64,000 nucleotides of DNA. Source: Dehalococcoidia bacterium (GTDB taxonomy: Bacteria > Chloroflexota > Dehalococcoidia > DSTF01 > JACRBR01). The notes under the pieces were generated by a model. It saw nothing but the letters and a program-made list of their open reading frames with translations. It was not told the DNA's origin and searched no databases. Both the position numbers and the translations under genes were made by a program. Of the stretch, positions 12,687 to 20,873 are shown piece after piece. The DNA lies in the NCBI GenBank assembly GCA_021462855.1, contig JAJTXQ010000036.1:1-64000 (forward strand). The letters are read 5' to 3'. Position 1 is the first letter of the stretch, and each line of letters opens with the position of its first letter.

Positions 12687-13637
12687 TCAGACATCGCGCG
12701 CGCAGCGGAAGCCCGTGTGACCGGTGGCGCTGTCCGGCGTGTTCGCGCTGCGCGCCGACACGCGATAGCGGTGGCAGTACGAGGCGTGGCACAGGTACGA
12801 GCCGCCGCGGATCACCTTCTGCACGCCGTCCGGGGGCCCTTGCGGCCGGTCCGCGCTCGCCATCGCGTGCCAGTCGACGCTGAACCAGTCGGCGCACCAC
12901 TCCCACACGTTGCCCGACGTGTTATACAGCCCGAAGCCGTTCGGCGCATATGCGTCGACTGGCGCGGCGCCGTAGTAGCCGTCGTCGCCCGTGTTGTCGT
13001 TCGGGAACGTGCCCTGCCAGATGTTGCAGCGATGCTCGCCGCCGGGCGTCAGATCGTCGCCCCACGGGTAGCGCCGCTGATCCAGACCGCCGCGCGCCGC
13101 GCATTCCCATTCCGCCTCGGTCGGCAGGCGCAGCCCGGCCCACGCGCAGTACGCCATCGCATCGTTCCATGAGACGTGCACGACCGGATGCCGCATGCGG
13201 CCATCGAGCGTTGAGTGCGGGCCCTCGGGACGGCGCCAGTGCGCGCCGGCCACCTCGCGCCACCACGGCGCGGCCGCGACGCCGCGCGTCTCCGGGAACT
13301 CGTCCGGGAGCAGCCCCGCGAAGACAAAAGACCAGCCGTAGCGCTCCGCGTCCGTCGCGTAGCCCGTCGCGTCCACGAATGCGGCGAACTGCTCGTTGCT
13401 GACGGCGCAGGCATCGATCCAGAACGGGTCGAGCGTCACGCGCCGCGCCGGGCCCTCGCCGTCGGCGCGGTAGCCGATGCCATCGTCCGTGCCCATGATG
13501 AAGTCACCGCCGGCGACCAACACCATGCCGTCCGTCGTGCCTCGCGGTGACGCGGCGATGCTCGCCACACCGGTGGCGCCGTGCCGCTCGCCCGCGGATG
13601 GAGCGCAGCACGGTGCGGCGTGCTGTTCGTCACACAC
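12687..13637 (-). CDS. Formylglycine-generating enzyme (aerobic FGE/SUMF1 family)
   Basis: This 316-residue enzyme oxidises the active-site cysteine of type I sulfatases (CxPxR) to formylglycine using oxygen. The FGE-sulfatase domain begins at MVLVAGGDFIMGT and ends with RGGSYLCHASYCHRYR. In that motif Cys283 and Cys288 match the two copper-binding catalytic cysteines of characterised FGEs, and SANTPDS and GFRCA follow as in bona fide enzymes. Lookalike family members without these cysteines are thereby excluded. The N-terminus carries a CCAP motif seen in bacterial FGEs. The GTG start lies 15 nt after the sulfatase stop codon, indicating an operon in which the enzyme matures its neighbour. 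Confidence 0.93.
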   Translation of the reverse strand: MCDEQHAAPCCAPSAGERHGATGVASIAASPRGTTDGMVLVAGGDFIMGTDDGIGYRADGEGPARRVTLDPFWIDACAVSNEQFAAFVDATGYATDAERYGWSFVFAGLLPDEFPETRGVAAAPWWREVAGAHWRRPEGPHSTLDGRMRHPVVHVSWNDAMAYCAWAGLRLPTEAEWECAARGGLDQRRYPWGDDLTPGGEHRCNIWQGTFPNDNTGDDGYYGAAPVDAYAPNGFGLYNTSGNVWEWCADWFSVDWHAMASADRPQGPPDGVQKVIRGGSYLCHASYCHRYRVSARSANTPDSATGHTGFRCARDV

Positions 13638-13652
13638 GGCCGCGATCGCGCA

Positions 13653-15953
13653 TCACTGGCGCGCCATCTCGATCTGCGCCTCCTGCTCCAGGTCGCGCGG
13701 CGGCTCCGTCGCATCGAGCTCGATGATCACGCGGCGCAGTTCGCCCGTGAACTCGAACGGCGACTGGTAGTCCTCGCTCACCGGGTTGCCGTCATCGCGG
13801 CCGCACTGCAGCGCCTCGCCGAGCGAGAAGAGGAATGGCACGGTGCGCTTGATCTCGCCCTCGCCCGCGGGCTCGCCGTTGATGTACAGCCGCGCCGTGC
13901 CGCCCGGCCCGAACGGCCGGTCGCCGTACTTCTCGAACGCGAACCCCAGCTCGACGCGGCCCGCCGGGATCGGCCGGTCGGACCTCACCGTCCAGCGCTC
14001 ACGGCCGAGGAAGTTGTAGGTGTAGACGAGCCGCCCGCCCTGCACATACAGCGAGTAGCCGCCGAACCGCCCTCCCTCCGAGATCAGCACGCCTTCGGCG
14101 CCGGATTCGGGCATCACCGCCTCGGCGACGATCGCGTGGCTGCGGTTCTTGACGTTCGCCGCCGCCGCCGTCTCGATCGGCGCGCCGCCGGGAAAGTACG
14201 TGAAGTGCCGCCGCCGCCCGGAGATCCGCGGCCGCCCGATCGCGCGCGCGACCGTCCGCGCGTCGATCGGCAGCACCTGGTAGCGGCCGGCTTCGGCCCA
14301 CCACAGCGCCTGCAGTTCGCGCAGCTTCTCGGGGTACTCGCCGGCGAGGTCCTTGCTTTCCGAGAAGTCGTTGTCGACGTGGTACAGCTCCCACTTGTCT
14401 TCGTCGAAGTGCTTCGACGGGTCCGTGACGCCGTCGTAGATCATCCCCTCGGTGCCGTGATACGTCACCGCCTTCCAGCCGCGGTGGTAGATCGCGCGGT
14501 TCCCGAGCATCTCGTAGTACTGCGTCTCATGCCGGCTCGCGGCTTCGGGTTCGCCGAAGGTGTGCGCGAAGCTCGACCCGTGGATCGGCGACTGCGCGTG
14601 TCCCTTGATCACGGCCGGCGGATCGACGCCGATCGCATCGAGCACCGTCGGCGAGATGTCGACGGCGTGGATGTACTGGCCGCGCACGTCGCCACGCGCC
14701 GCGATCCCCGCCGGCCAGTGCACGATGCACGGGTCGGCGACGCCGCCCTCGTGCACCTCGCGCTTCCAGCGCTGGAACGGGGTGTTGCCGGCCCACGCCC
14801 AGCCGTACGGATAATGGTTGAACGTGTTCGGCCCGCCCAACTCGTCGATCCGCGCCAGGTTCTCGCCGATGCTCTCGAACACGCGGTTGAAGAACGCCGC
14901 CTCGTTCACCGAGCCGTGCGGCCCGCCCTCGGCGCTCGCGCCGTTGTCGGAGATCGCCACGACGATCGTGTTGTCGAGCTCGCCGAGCCGCTCGATGAAA
15001 TCGAGCACGCGGCCGATGTGATGGTCGGTGTGCGACATGAAGCCCGCGTACACCTCCATCATCCGCGCGTACAGCCGGCGCTCGTCGTCGCTGAGGCTGT
15101 CCCACGCCGCGATCCAGTGCGGCCGCGGCGTCAGCTCCGTGTCCGCCGGCAGGATGCCGAGCGCCTTCTGCCGTTCGAAGACCACATCGCGCGCCTTGTC
15201 CCAACCCATGTCGAAGCGGCCGCGGTACTTCTCGATCCACTCCTTCGGCGCGTGGTGCGGCGCGTGGCATGCGCCGGTGCAGAAGTACAGGAAGAACGGC
15301 TTCTCCGGCGCCGCGTTGCGCAGGTCCGTCAGGAACTCGATCGCGTGGTCCGCCAGGTCCTCCGTGAGGTGGTAGCCCTCCTCGGGCGAACGCGGCTGCT
15401 CGATCGGGTGGTTGTCGTACACGAGCTCGGGGTGCCACTGGTTCGTGTCGCCGCCCATGAACCCGTAGAACCGCTCGAAGCCCCGCCCGAGCGGCCAGCG
15501 GTCCTTGCGCGCCCCCATGTTCATCTCGGCCTGCGGCGTCAGGTGCCACTTGCCGACGGCGTACGCGGCGTAGCCGTGCGGCGTCAGCATCTCCGGCAGG
15601 AAGCCGTTCTCGAACGGGATCTCGGTGTTATAGCCGGGGAACCCGCTCGGCACCTCGACGATGCTCGCCATGGCGTTCGCGTGGTGGTTCCGGCCGGTGA
15701 GCAGGCATGTGCGCGTCGGCGAACAGAGGGCCGTCGTGTGGAAGTTGCGGTAGCGCAGCCCGCGGGACGCCAGCCGGTCGAGGTTCGGCGTCTCGCACAG
15801 CCCGCCAAAGCACGAGATCTGCCCGTAGCCCACGTCATCGAGCACGATGTAGACGACGTTCGGCGAGCCCTCGCGCGCGCGCACCTGCTCCGGCCACCAG
15901 GGCGTCGACTCCGTGGCCACGCGGCCGATCACTCCCTTGAATTCCTGCGGCAT
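13653..15953 (-). CDS. Type I arylsulfatase
   Basis: This 766-residue sulfatase hydrolyses sulfate esters. Metal-binding DD (39-40) lies in YIVLDDVGYG, the formylglycine site CSPTRTCLLTGR has Cys77, GKWHL follows, and the second metal pair is DN in AISDNGA. The C-terminal third (about 560-766) is beta-rich with a polysaccharide-lectin-like look (SLYVQGGRLVYTYNFLGRE, ARLYINGEPAGEGEI), as in the large AtsA-type arylsulfatases. No signal peptide is seen, so it is probably cytoplasmic, where FGE can act. MPQEFKGV is chosen as start because GAGGAG precedes it. It is first in the operon with FGE. Confidence 0.92.
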   Translation of the reverse strand: MPQEFKGVIGRVATESTPWWPEQVRAREGSPNVVYIVLDDVGYGQISCFGGLCETPNLDRLASRGLRYRNFHTTALCSPTRTCLLTGRNHHANAMASIVEVPSGFPGYNTEIPFENGFLPEMLTPHGYAAYAVGKWHLTPQAEMNMGARKDRWPLGRGFERFYGFMGGDTNQWHPELVYDNHPIEQPRSPEEGYHLTEDLADHAIEFLTDLRNAAPEKPFFLYFCTGACHAPHHAPKEWIEKYRGRFDMGWDKARDVVFERQKALGILPADTELTPRPHWIAAWDSLSDDERRLYARMMEVYAGFMSHTDHHIGRVLDFIERLGELDNTIVVAISDNGASAEGGPHGSVNEAAFFNRVFESIGENLARIDELGGPNTFNHYPYGWAWAGNTPFQRWKREVHEGGVADPCIVHWPAGIAARGDVRGQYIHAVDISPTVLDAIGVDPPAVIKGHAQSPIHGSSFAHTFGEPEAASRHETQYYEMLGNRAIYHRGWKAVTYHGTEGMIYDGVTDPSKHFDEDKWELYHVDNDFSESKDLAGEYPEKLRELQALWWAEAGRYQVLPIDARTVARAIGRPRISGRRRHFTYFPGGAPIETAAAANVKNRSHAIVAEAVMPESGAEGVLISEGGRFGGYSLYVQGGRLVYTYNFLGRERWTVRSDRPIPAGRVELGFAFEKYGDRPFGPGGTARLYINGEPAGEGEIKRTVPFLFSLGEALQCGRDDGNPVSEDYQSPFEFTGELRRVIIELDATEPPRDLEQEAQIEMARQ

Positions 15954-16275
15954 CGTGCGCTTCTCCTCACCAACGGACCGGGGACGTTCAGGCAACGATC
16001 CTAGCCACGTAGCGTGGTGCAATCAACCGCCGCGGATGCGCGCAGTACGAGTTCTCCAATGCCGACAGTGGGAGATCGCCTGCCGGTCGGCGAGCCGCAA
16101 TCCGGGCGAACGAGAGCGCGTCCCGCACCGCGCAGGCGTGCGCGTCGATGTTGACGCCGCCGCGCACCCACCCTGATCCTTCTCGCCGAATCGATGCGCG
16201 CGCAACGCTTCCGCATCGGGACGACCGGCACTTTCGTGCAGACCCGCGAGTGGCGCACGTTGGCTGTCGCCGGGG
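15954..16275 (+). other. Gene-poor stretch with repeat copy A1
   Basis: No supported gene is found. The stretch holds the first copy of a 118-bp direct repeat (16093-16210). ORFs on both strands are short and have mixed character, consistent with degraded coding DNA. Confidence 0.4.
16093..16210 (+). repeat. Direct repeat, copy A1
   Basis: About 118 bp (AGCCGCAATCCGGGCGAACG ...) are repeated at 17337-17451 in the same orientation, with only a few substitutions and one 3-nt length difference. The two copies bracket the secreted-protein gene and its promoter. Confidence 0.85.
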
Positions 16276-16425
16276 CTACACCGAGGTTGCGTCGGCCAAC
16301 AACTGTTCGAGGCACGCGGCGAGACCGTGTTGGTGGGCCAGGAAGCGACGCTCAAAGGCGAGCCAGCCGCCTTCGGGCCAGACGTGGCGACGGCGCTCGC
16401 CATCGACCACCCGCTGGGCTAGCAT
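16276..16425 (-). CDS. Possible small ORF overlapping the end of the poly-G gene
   Basis: This 49-codon frame (MLAQRVVDGERRRHVWPEGG ...) starts inside the stop region of the secreted-protein gene (ATGCTAG overlap). It is in the frame that a one-base slip in the upstream G13 tract would enter. It could be an alternative C-terminal tail, a separate coupled mini-gene, or noise. The opposite strand also reads protein-like here, so the call is weak. Confidence 0.25.
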   Translation of the reverse strand: MLAQRVVDGERRRHVWPEGGWLAFERRFLAHQHGLAACLEQLLADATSV

Positions 16426-17222
16426 GAGAGTCCCATCCAGCGGCAGCCGAACTCCCACCCTAACCCCCCCCCCCCCGAGCCGAGACCCGGTAGCGGATCA
16501 GTGATGCTGTCGATGTCCAAGGTCCACGTGCCGGGACACATAGGCGTGGCGTAGCCGGGACTGTTCACCCACGCATCGAGTCGATGCTTGGCTTCCCACA
16601 GAGTGATGCCGACGCGCGGGTACTTGAACCCGCCTATCGCGTGCACGAACAGCGACGAGTACACGCCGGGGGAGTACTGGCTTGCCGGTAGCGCGTATCC
16701 GTTCGTGCTCGTTTGGTGATACAGAATGCTGCCTGCTGGCGTAAGGCTGGCGTCCATGGACGGCGGGTTCTGCCAGTCCGTGAGGTTGCTGAACGGCTGA
16801 ATGATGAAGCCTTCACTCACGTCAAAGGTGAACACGTTCACGCCGCCTATCTCGCCCGTCCATGACCACTCACATGTCCATAGCCCAGCTGACTGCACTG
16901 CCCCTGACGAGGGCAGCGTTGGCGACGAGCCGTCGGGCGCGATCAAGGTTGAGGTGCCAGACAGGAACGCCTCGATGGCGTTACAGTCGCCATCGTACAG
17001 CGTCACGCCCGTTTGCGAGGTCTGCCCGCTCGACACGTCGAGCGTGACCTGCTGCGTATCGGGGCACGCGCCCTCGGCCCTGCGCACCGGCACGGGGTTG
17101 TCGATAACGCTCCCCTCGCGATAGCAGGCGCTCGCCGCCGCCCCGACCACCAGGTAGAGGGCGACAACGGAAGCGAGGAAGAACAGCATGCGCCGCACGA
17201 GAGATCGCATGTTGCCCGTCAT
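16419..17222 (-). CDS. Secreted/lipoprotein-like hypothetical protein with poly-G tract
   Basis: This 267-residue protein has an N-terminal signal sequence (MRSLVRRMLFFLASVVALYL, then VVGAAASACYRE). The Cys after ASA suggests a lipobox-like site, although cleavage by signal peptidase I is also possible. The mature part is beta-rich with several Cys (VTLYDGDCNAIEAFLSG, SAGLWTCEWSWTGEIGG, MCPGTWTLDI) and belongs to no family I know. Near the C-terminus a G13 run encodes GGGG, and a one-base slip there would replace the last residues by about 60 others. Codon use is visibly less GC-biased than in neighbours, suggesting acquisition. A partial copy of its 5' end survives at 17452-17536. Confidence 0.7.
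   Translation of the reverse strand: MTGNMRSLVRRMLFFLASVVALYLVVGAAASACYREGSVIDNPVPVRRAEGACPDTQQVTLDVSSGQTSQTGVTLYDGDCNAIEAFLSGTSTLIAPDGSSPTLPSSGAVQSAGLWTCEWSWTGEIGGVNVFTFDVSEGFIIQPFSNLTDWQNPPSMDASLTPAGSILYHQTSTNGYALPASQYSPGVYSSLFVHAIGGFKYPRVGITLWEAKHRLDAWVNSPGYATPMCPGTWTLDIDSITDPLPGLGSGGGGLGWEFGCRWMGLSC
16464..16476 (-). repeat. Poly-C13 homopolymer (poly-G in the coding strand)
   Basis: Thirteen consecutive C on the plus strand lie inside the 3' end of the secreted-protein gene. Homopolymers of this length slip during replication. Length changes here would switch the C-terminal reading frame. Confidence 0.8.
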
Positions 17223-17257
17223 GTCACATCTTTTCTGGCGGTACTCCCGCTCACGTG

Positions 17258-17283
17258 AGTATACCCCCCCCCCCACATGGCAA
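17258..17283 (-). promoter_or_regulatory. Promoter with G11 tract in the spacer (phase-variation candidate)
   Basis: On the minus strand the -10 TATACT (17258-17263) lies 36 nt from the start codon of the secreted-protein gene. It is preceded by an unbroken run of 11 G (17264-17274), three more bases and a -35 TTGCCA (17278-17283). The spacer is therefore 14 nt, short of the optimal 17, and every added G would lengthen it. This is the architecture of phase-variable promoters in which slippage sets expression. Confidence 0.6.
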
Positions 17284-17336
17284 GCCTCTGGAACCTTGGC
17301 TGGATCGCCGGCGTGTTACAGTCAGCGGCGCGCGAC

Positions 17337-17451
17337 AGCCGCAATCCGGGCGAACGAGAGCGCGTCCCGCACCGCGCAGGCGTACGCGTCGATGTTGACG
17401 CCGCGCACCCACCCTGAGCCTTCTCGCCGAATCGATGCGCGGGCAACGCTT
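17337..17451 (+). repeat. Direct repeat, copy A2
   Basis: Second copy of the repeat at 16093-16210. It runs straight into a fragment of the secreted-protein gene at 17452, so the pair looks like the remains of a tandem duplication. Confidence 0.85.
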
Positions 17452-17536
17452 TCGAGCGTGACCTGCCGCATATCGGGGCACGCGCCCTCGGCCCGACACC
17501 CCGACACGGGGTTGTCGATACCGGAAGCGAGGAAGA
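17452..17536 (-). pseudogene. Remnant of a second copy of the secreted-protein gene
   Basis: The 69 bp at 17452-17520 match 17038-17106, inside the 5' part of the secreted-protein gene. The last 15 bp (CGGAAGCGAGGAAGA) match 17168-17182, so about 60 bp are deleted between them. No start codon or full frame remains. Together with repeat A2 it marks a duplicated, then mostly deleted, gene unit. The 86 bp between this and the gene at 17623 hold no other feature. Confidence 0.7.
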
Positions 17537-17622
17537 CGAGCCTCTACCAGGCGTGGGAGAAGTACGAGTTCAATGTCGGCACGCGCAACGCGCACCGACC
17601 GGCGATCGGCTATACATCGATC

Positions 17623-18252
17623 ATGCAGATCATCGACATCTCGGCGCCGGTGCGCGCGGGCATGCACGTGTACGAGGGCGATCCACCGGTCTCGATCGAG
17701 CGTGCGGCGTCGATCGCCGCCGGCGACCTGGCGAACGTCACGCGGCTCGCGTTCGGGGCGCACACCGGCACGCACGTCGATGCGCCCGTGCACTTCATCG
17801 AGGGCGCGCCGGGCGTCGAGACGCTGCCGCTCGACGCGCTGATCGGCCCCGCGGCCGTCGTCGACGCGACGCGGATCACCGCCGACATCGACGCGGCCGC
17901 GCTCGCGGCGCTCGACATCCCGTCCGGCGCAACGCGCGTGCTGTTCAAGACGCCGAACTCGGCGCTCTGGGACGAGCCGGCGTTCTCGCCGCACTTCGTC
18001 GGCCTGCTGCCCGATGCGGCGCGCGCGCTCGCCGGACGCGGCGTGCGGCTCGCCGGCATCGACTACCTCTCGGTGGCGCCCCAAGCCGACCCCGCGCCGG
18101 CGCACGAGGCGCTGCTGCGCGCCGGCATCGTGATCCTCGAGGGGCTGGACTTGCGGCGCGTCGAGCCGGGCGCGTACACGCTCATCTGTCTGCCGCTGCT
18201 CATTCCCGGCGCCGATGGCGCGCCCGCGCGCGCCGTGCTGACGCGGCCGTAG
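17623..18252 (+). CDS. Cyclase/kynurenine formamidase-family metal-dependent hydrolase
   Basis: This 209-residue protein has the length of bacterial KynB. It carries the metal-binding motif GAHTGTHVDAPVHF (about 46-59), preceded by DISAPVRAGMHVYEGDP, and ends with the GLDLRRVEPGAYTLICLPL pattern of the family. Members hydrolyse N-formylkynurenine or related amide or lactone bonds with a zinc pair. No tryptophan-degradation genes are adjacent, so the substrate is open. A TATACA element ends 7 nt before the ATG, so the mRNA may be leaderless. The tracked upstream extension is rejected because it runs through the repeat region. Confidence 0.88.
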   Translation: MQIIDISAPVRAGMHVYEGDPPVSIERAASIAAGDLANVTRLAFGAHTGTHVDAPVHFIEGAPGVETLPLDALIGPAAVVDATRITADIDAAALAALDIPSGATRVLFKTPNSALWDEPAFSPHFVGLLPDAARALAGRGVRLAGIDYLSVAPQADPAPAHEALLRAGIVILEGLDLRRVEPGAYTLICLPLLIPGADGAPARAVLTRP

Positions 18253-19316: not shown

Positions 19317-20873
19317 ATGCAGACCGCGACCGCACCGGCGCCGACGGCCAGCGCCCCAGCGCCAGCGATGCCGCGCCGCGTCATCGTCGTCCTGCTCGAC
19401 AGCCTGAACCGCCACATGCTCGGCGCCTACGGCGGCCGCGAGTTCGCCACGCCGCACCTCGACGCGTTCGCGCGCCGCGCGGTGAAGTTCGAGAAGCACT
19501 ATGCCGGTTCGCTGCCGTGCATCCCCGCGCGGCACGACCTGCTGTGCGGCGCCCTCGACTTCCTGTGGAAGCCCTGGGGGTCGATCGAGCTCTGGGAGCA
19601 CGCGCTGACGACATACCTGCGCCGCCAGTCCATCGTGACGATGCTCATTTCGGATCACCCGCACCTGTTCGCGTCGGGCGGCGAGAACTACCACACGGAC
19701 TTCTACGCGTGGGAGTACGAACGCGGGCACGAGAACGACCCGTGGAAGACGCGCCCCGACCCGAGCTGGATCGGCGCCCCGACGTCGTTCCGCGCGTACG
19801 CCGACTGGGGCTACGACCGCTCGCGCGGCTACTTCCGCGGCGAGGAGGACTTCCCCGGCCCGCGCACGATGGCCGCCGCCGCGCGCTGGATCGACGACCA
19901 CGCCGCGCACCACGACCGCTTCCTGCTGTTCGTCGACGAGTTCGACCCGCACGAGCCGTTCGACACGCCCGAGCCCTACGCATCGATGTACGACGAGACG
20001 TGGGAGGGGGCGCACCTCATCTGGCCGCCATACGCCGTCGCCGCGCTGAAGCGCGGCGTGCTCACCGAGCGGCAGGGGCGCCAGGTGCGCGCGTCCTACG
20101 GCGGCAAACTGACGATGATCGACCGCTGGTTCGGCAACGTGATCGCAGCCATCGACCGGCAGGCGCTGTGGGACGACACGGCGGTCATCGTGTGCACGGA
20201 TCACGGCCACTATCTCGGCGAGAAGGACACGTGGGGCAAACCACCGTCGCCCGTCTACGAGCCGCTCGGCCACATCCCGCTGATGATCGCGTGGCCGGGC
20301 GTCGCGCCGGGGACGTCGGCCGCGCTGACGACCAACGTCGACATCTTCGCGACGCTCGCCGATATCTTCAGCATCACGCCGGAGCATCGCACGCACGGCC
20401 GCTCGCTCGTGCCGGTCGTCACGGGCGCGCAGCCCGGCGTCCGCGACTACGCGTTGTCCGGCATCTGGGGCCGCGAGGTGCACCTGATCGATGACACGCA
20501 CAAGTATGTGCGCGCCCCCGAAGGGCCGAACGCGCCGCTCTCGATGTGGTCGAACCGCTGGTCGTCGCTGGCGCTACACCACGCCGTGCCGGGCTACCGT
20601 TTCCCCGTGCCCGACGACCGCGCGACGCTCGACCGCATGCCCGGATCACGCATCCCCGTCATCCGCCAGCCCTTCCGGGAGGGGGACCTGCTGCCGTACT
20701 GGGCGGCCGGCCGCTTCACCGGCAACTACCTGTTCAACCTGCGCAACGACCCCGGCGAGGACGAGAACCTCGCATCATCGCGCGCCGAACGCGACGTCGC
20801 CGACAAGATGCGTACGGCGATGCAGGAGGTCGATGCGCCCGGCGACCAGTTCGAGCGCCTGGGGCTGGCGTAG
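19317..20873 (+). CDS. Type I sulfatase-family hydrolase
   Basis: This 518-residue alkaline-phosphatase-superfamily sulfatase has metal Asp in VIVVLLDSLNRHMLGAYGG, the formylglycine motif CIPAR with Cys68, the late metal pair in VIVCTDHGHYLGEKDTWGK, and a C-terminal FNLRNDPGEDENL closing motif typical of S1 sulfatases. The CxPxR motif fits the FGE encoded at 12687-13637. The Ala/Pro/Thr-rich first 17 residues may be untranslated, with MPRRVIVVLL as an alternative start. It is divergent from the ECF sigma gene and directly abuts the convergent CoA-transferase gene. Confidence 0.88.
   Translation: MQTATAPAPTASAPAPAMPRRVIVVLLDSLNRHMLGAYGGREFATPHLDAFARRAVKFEKHYAGSLPCIPARHDLLCGALDFLWKPWGSIELWEHALTTYLRRQSIVTMLISDHPHLFASGGENYHTDFYAWEYERGHENDPWKTRPDPSWIGAPTSFRAYADWGYDRSRGYFRGEEDFPGPRTMAAAARWIDDHAAHHDRFLLFVDEFDPHEPFDTPEPYASMYDETWEGAHLIWPPYAVAALKRGVLTERQGRQVRASYGGKLTMIDRWFGNVIAAIDRQALWDDTAVIVCTDHGHYLGEKDTWGKPPSPVYEPLGHIPLMIAWPGVAPGTSAALTTNVDIFATLADIFSITPEHRTHGRSLVPVVTGAQPGVRDYALSGIWGREVHLIDDTHKYVRAPEGPNAPLSMWSNRWSSLALHHAVPGYRFPVPDDRATLDRMPGSRIPVIRQPFREGDLLPYWAAGRFTGNYLFNLRNDPGEDENLASSRAERDVADKMRTAMQEVDAPGDQFERLGLA

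Follow-up and report, generated by a model that had tools for sequence, protein, structure and literature searches.

Promoter anatomy of a predicted exported-protein gene

The 64,000-nucleotide (nt) stretch analyzed here, referred to as the window, lies on contig JAJTXQ010000036.1 of a Dehalococcoidia bacterium (phylum Chloroflexota; GCA_021462855.1) and contains, on its minus strand, a run of 11 guanines (G11) between -35-like and -10-like hexamers upstream of a gene for a predicted exported protein of 267 amino acids (aa) (Table 1). The layout given in the initial annotation, TTGCCA-TGT-G11-TATACT at positions 17283 to 17258, was exact on direct reading, and its 14-nt spacer and 36-nt distance to the start codon were also reproduced, the ATG at 17222 being the 36th base after the -10 hexamer. 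The same annotation had proposed that extra Gs would move the spacer toward 17 nt; the spacer measures 14 nt at G11 and 17 nt at G14, placing a near-17 spacing within reach of slippage. A scan of positions 16000 to 17700 returned no promoter-like sites with a 16- to 18-nt spacer. The palindrome at the end of the -10 hexamer is possibly an operator.

The G11 tract and a G13 tract in the gene downstream of it are the only homopolymers of at least 8 nt in the window. Other G/C runs number 50, 7, and 1 at lengths of 5, 6, and 7 nt, the next lengths being 11 and 13 nt, and a first-order Markov model predicts 0.02 runs of at least 11 nt in 64 kb. For one given tract, the probability of having a -35 box and a -10 box on its sides, each matching at least five of six consensus positions, was ~3e-5, as computed from the window's own hexamer frequencies with ten placements allowed per box.

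The open reading frame (ORF) downstream has guanine-plus-cytosine fractions of.56,.54, and.81 at the three codon positions, as in a coding frame. Searches of 60 genomes of the class, genome contigs, viral contigs, phages, PDB, and Pfam gave no relatives of the gene. An AlphaFold model of the single sequence had a predicted local distance difference test (pLDDT) score of 35, with the signal helix alone reliable. Export of the product is predicted from its signal-peptide-like N terminus, with no family match and an uninformative fold model.

Table 1. Positions of the promoter elements, tracts, and gene features within the window
Feature	Position	Strand	Details
-35-like hexamer TTGCCA	17278..17283	minus	5/6 match to TTGACA; direct reading
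Spacer TGT	17275-17277	minus	between TTGCCA and G11; direct reading
G11 homopolymer	17264..17274	minus	in -35/-10 spacer; TGT plus G11 = 14 nt
-10-like hexamer TATACT	17258..17263	minus	5/6 match to TATAAT; direct reading
10-bp perfect palindrome CTCACGTGAG	17250..17259		overlaps -10 end and expected transcription start; direct reading
Predicted exported protein, 267 aa	16422..17222	minus	ATG 17222, alternative ATG 17210; signal peptide MRSLVRRMLFFLASVVALYLVVGAAASAC
Alternative ATG	17276..17278	minus	directly upstream of G11; joins the frame of the gene at G9, G12, or G15 only
G13 homopolymer	16464..16476	minus	last codons of the 267-aa ORF
Degraded second locus copy	17337..17525		upstream of the gene; two joined pieces of 118 nt and 72 nt

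Tract-bearing promoters across Dehalococcoidia

A total of 393 genomes of the class Dehalococcoidia were searched for G tracts within promoter spacers (TTGAC-N1-9-G8-N0-9-TANNNT), with the reversed pattern as a control. The pattern recovered 59 sites in 46 of the 393 genomes, compared to 4 for the reversed pattern, and a C-tract version recovered 35 sites compared to 4 for its control. To determine whether tracts merely sit near promoters, the same G tract was also placed upstream of the -35 box (17 sites) or downstream of the -10 box (6 sites), placements that offer similar, not identical, numbers of opportunities (~9 to 10 each). With the spacer limited to 14 to 20 nt, counts inside, upstream, and downstream were 50:17:6 (chi-square P ~4e-10). 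For strong boxes they were 27:3:1. Spacer lengths among strong-box sites ranged from 13 to 21 nt, around 17 nt. Bases not fixed by the search pattern also followed the consensus, the sixth base of the -35 box being A in 38 of 49 cases.

In the same order as the target, TTGACA-GGGC-G10-TATGTT (L064/L109), likewise with 14 nt between its boxes, precedes the gene for a signal-peptide protein. Look-alike small proteins of 77 to 78 aa occur in multiple copies in two families of the class (L135 and L136 in genome G034; L148, L149, and L151 in G088), each gene with a TTGACA-..G11-13..-TATAAT promoter; these genes possibly belong to a mobile or repeated element. The downstream gene looked exported at 20 of 49 G-tract and 10 of 24 C-tract promoters (30 of 73 in total), compared to 38 of the 178 remaining ORFs at those loci (P = 0.003), although the export call was a crude home-made heuristic and the effect is a modest, roughly twofold one.

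Tract length differed between related promoters. In genus g67, related exported-protein genes are preceded by TTGACG-Cn-GCGTGCTAGGCTTCGCTATAGCTTGAAGAGGAG, with n = 7, 8, and 8 in genome G352 and n = 9 in G140, where a close variant of the promoter has n = 10; the flank following the tract, GCGTGCTAGGCT, is kept while n differs by genome (7, 8, and 8 versus 9 and 10). A lipoprotein gene of genus g32 has a conserved promoter and leader around a tract that is G14 in G128 and G8 in G087; in G101 the tract is G9 and the left part is shorter, and in G179 the tract is interrupted. Promoters of paralogs within one genome carry G8, G9, and G11 (G038) or G12 and G13 (G034). These differences lie between species and between gene copies and do not prove that any one population switches. 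One paralog in the poly-C-promoter family (L263/L268; G352 C1:844976-845780) appears to be frameshifted relative to its G140 ortholog.

The 3.02-Mb genome containing the window has ten G/C runs of at least 9 nt, of which two lie at the end of a contig or close to it. All four intergenic runs of this length inside contigs precede signal-peptide-like ORFs: the target; contig C28, where TTGACA-AGAACGA-G9-CG-TAGTGT (18-nt spacer) lies upstream of a lipoprotein; C35 (L034 5173-5250, G000), where G13 is directly followed by TACGAT and a 425-aa signal-peptide protein starts 32 nt later; and C52, where a C9 run lies upstream of a secreted HELGH-containing protein. A further G11 run (C54; L035 7054-7064, G000) lies inside the reading frame of a GDSL-like protein whose N terminus resembles an export signal; it is a candidate for translational switching and leaves the gene in frame in the assembly. 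Loss of mismatch repair was rejected as the source of the long tracts, since the genome encodes MutS.

A probable slippage-tuned promoter spacer

We consider it probable, at roughly 60%, that the G11 tract is the slippage-tuned spacer of a sigma-70-type promoter for the predicted exported protein, of the porA/fetA kind. Slippage during replication would add or remove Gs, and the changed count would alter both the distance between the -35 and -10 boxes and the way they face each other, thereby setting promoter strength. Under such a mechanism, the assembled G11 promoter (14-nt spacer) would be weak or off, while G13 to G15 (16- to 18-nt spacers) would be on, the strongest promoter being expected near G14. 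Transcription would be expected to start at the palindrome, and cells of a slipping population may differ in how much of a possibly surface-exposed product they make. Both the sign and the magnitude of such a change in expression are inferred. The initial annotation had likewise proposed that an outer protein is switched on and off by slippage. This proposal is partly supported: its switch gains from the promoter anatomy, the enrichment of tracts in spacers, the length differences between related promoters, and the export bias, whereas its outer protein goes further than a signal-peptide prediction.

Several points weigh against this interpretation. The -35 hexamer of the target, TTGCCA, falls outside the TTGAC pattern used in the survey; the target gene is an orphan, leaving its own tract with no comparison; and the length differences between species and paralogs could be explained by slow neutral drift. 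The presence of MutS means that slippage is not unrestrained, and the poly-G runs of 33 to 50 nt at contig ends and gaps in genome G003 mean that tracts in metagenome-assembled genomes (MAGs) can be sequencing artifacts. The small size of the export bias and the crude way in which export was called count on the same side.

An inert tract, fixed in length and left by mutation bias in intergenic DNA under low constraint, with or without a promoter, is an unlikely explanation. Homopolymers are tolerated in intergenic DNA, and the orphan gene with its decayed adjacent copy suggests weak constraint here. A passive tract, however, is predicted to be spread evenly around promoters, in contrast to the concentration in the spacer described above; moreover, the run lengths are outliers and exported genes are favored downstream.

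It is also improbable, and clearly more so, that the tract acts in translation, with the protein starting at the ATG at 17278 and slippage shifting the gene in and out of frame. That ATG, which like the G13 tract goes beyond the initial annotation, has a Shine-Dalgarno-like AGAGG upstream at a suitable distance, and its frame is open into the gene at G12. Codons at the 5' end are the most common position of phase-variable tracts in Neisseria. At G11 as assembled, the same ATG yields a dead product of 19 aa. Starting there would place ~22 additional residues, many of them charged, before the signal peptide, and an mRNA derived from TATACT would begin downstream of this ATG. The ATGs at 17222 and 17210 would also remain usable downstream, and at comparable sites in relatives, such as L064, L102/L103, and L106, no ATG of this kind serves as the natural start.

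We regard as remote the explanation that the G run was miscounted or created during sequencing or assembly by the poly-G errors of two-color Illumina chemistry. In this genome, poly-G runs of 19 to 21 nt do occur in C2 and C54, at the contig end or close to it, and in G003 runs of 20 to 50 nt lie at contig ends and beside N10 gaps (L079, L086, L089, and L090). Contig-end runs (C2, C54, G003, and G004) were set aside as likely artifacts, and the assembled tract length is uncertain. Both tracts in the window, by comparison, are internal with unique sequence on either side, and similar sites occur in genomes of one or a few contigs (for example, G097, G195, and G140). Least probable, and very improbable in our view, is a fixed structural or binding element (a two-tier quadruplex, a stiff spacer, or a regulator site) that is not a length switch: G11 could in principle just suffice for a two-tier quadruplex and the palindrome overlaps the -10 hexamer, but C-tract spacers are enriched too and tract length differs in otherwise conserved promoters, a pattern more readily explained by spacing than by a fixed site.

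A second candidate switch and comparison with known systems

The target gene carries a second tract, G13, near its 3' end. Translation of the frames gives products of 253, 267, and 315 aa at G12, G13, and G14, respectively, which differ in their C termini, so that a protein is kept at each length. This tract is possibly a second switch, one that would change the C terminus independently of the promoter tract. Homopolymers near the 3' end of ORFs in Helicobacter canadensis and Neisseria gonorrhoeae likewise produce alternative C termini (PMC2823697, PMC5320596); unlike those, the C termini of the target are predicted from sequence and have no structural domain by which to interpret them. In Helicobacter pylori, sabA combines a promoter-region poly-T tract with a CT repeat in the ORF (PMC2715451). 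As in sabA, the target gene, whose product is predicted to be exported, has two repeats, of which the first belongs to the promoter region and the second to the ORF; the likeness is by region and not position by position as far as the poly-T tract is concerned. The coding repeat of sabA, however, lies near the 5' end and acts as an on/off switch, in contrast to the 3' position of the tract in the target.

The closest parallels to the G11 tract are porA and opc of Neisseria meningitidis and fetA/frpB of N. gonorrhoeae, in which tract length sets promoter spacing according to passages in PMC5320596 and PMC5084427 (the latter citing van der Ende 1995 and Sarkari 1994). The initial annotation had pointed to phase-variable promoters elsewhere, in which the length of a spacer homopolymer sets promoter strength. 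As in those promoters, the homopolymer of the target lies between recognizable -35 and -10 boxes. The target differs in belonging to another phylum, in driving an unrelated gene, in its assembled spacer of 14 nt, and in being known here from sequence alone.

Spacer slippage as a mechanism is already known, and what would be new is its occurrence in Chloroflexota, for which we found no report. The literature search returned no phase variation in Chloroflexota or Dehalococcoidia, in keeping with the initial annotation, although its coverage was incomplete and the negative is hence weak evidence; a survey of within-gene homopolymers did take in Dehalococcoidetes. Most known cases of promoter-spacer phase variation come from host-associated pathogens. 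Dehalococcoidia are environmental bacteria that are, to our knowledge, not known as phase-variable.

A tentative extension, to which we give slightly less than an even chance, is that the class as a whole possesses a set of contingency loci whose G/C homopolymers adjust the spacing of promoters for exported proteins, lipoproteins among them, with the target adding a C-terminal switch. If so, free-living or uncultivated Chloroflexota may use stochastic surface switching against other pressures, such as phages, grazers, or substrate change. The length of a single G run in metagenomic reads would then be a readable on/off state of uncultivated bacteria.

Genomic neighborhood

The target gene is flanked by direct repeats of ~120 nt (16093-16213 and the region 17337-17525). 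The upstream region is a degraded second copy of the locus, made up of a 118-nt downstream repeat (94% identity to 16093-16213) joined to a 72-nt gene fragment (89% identity to 17038-17109). The repeats and the decayed fragment are read as traces of an old tandem duplication in which internal deletions took out, among other parts, the second copy's tract-bearing promoter. On either side of the locus lie genes for two sulfatases and a sulfatase-modifying (FGE) protein (12687-16022 and 19317-20873). The class is most likely Dehalococcoidia also by the evidence of a neighboring gene, whose nearest named relatives are from Dehalococcoidia and Chloroflexi MAGs, at 70 to 77% identity.
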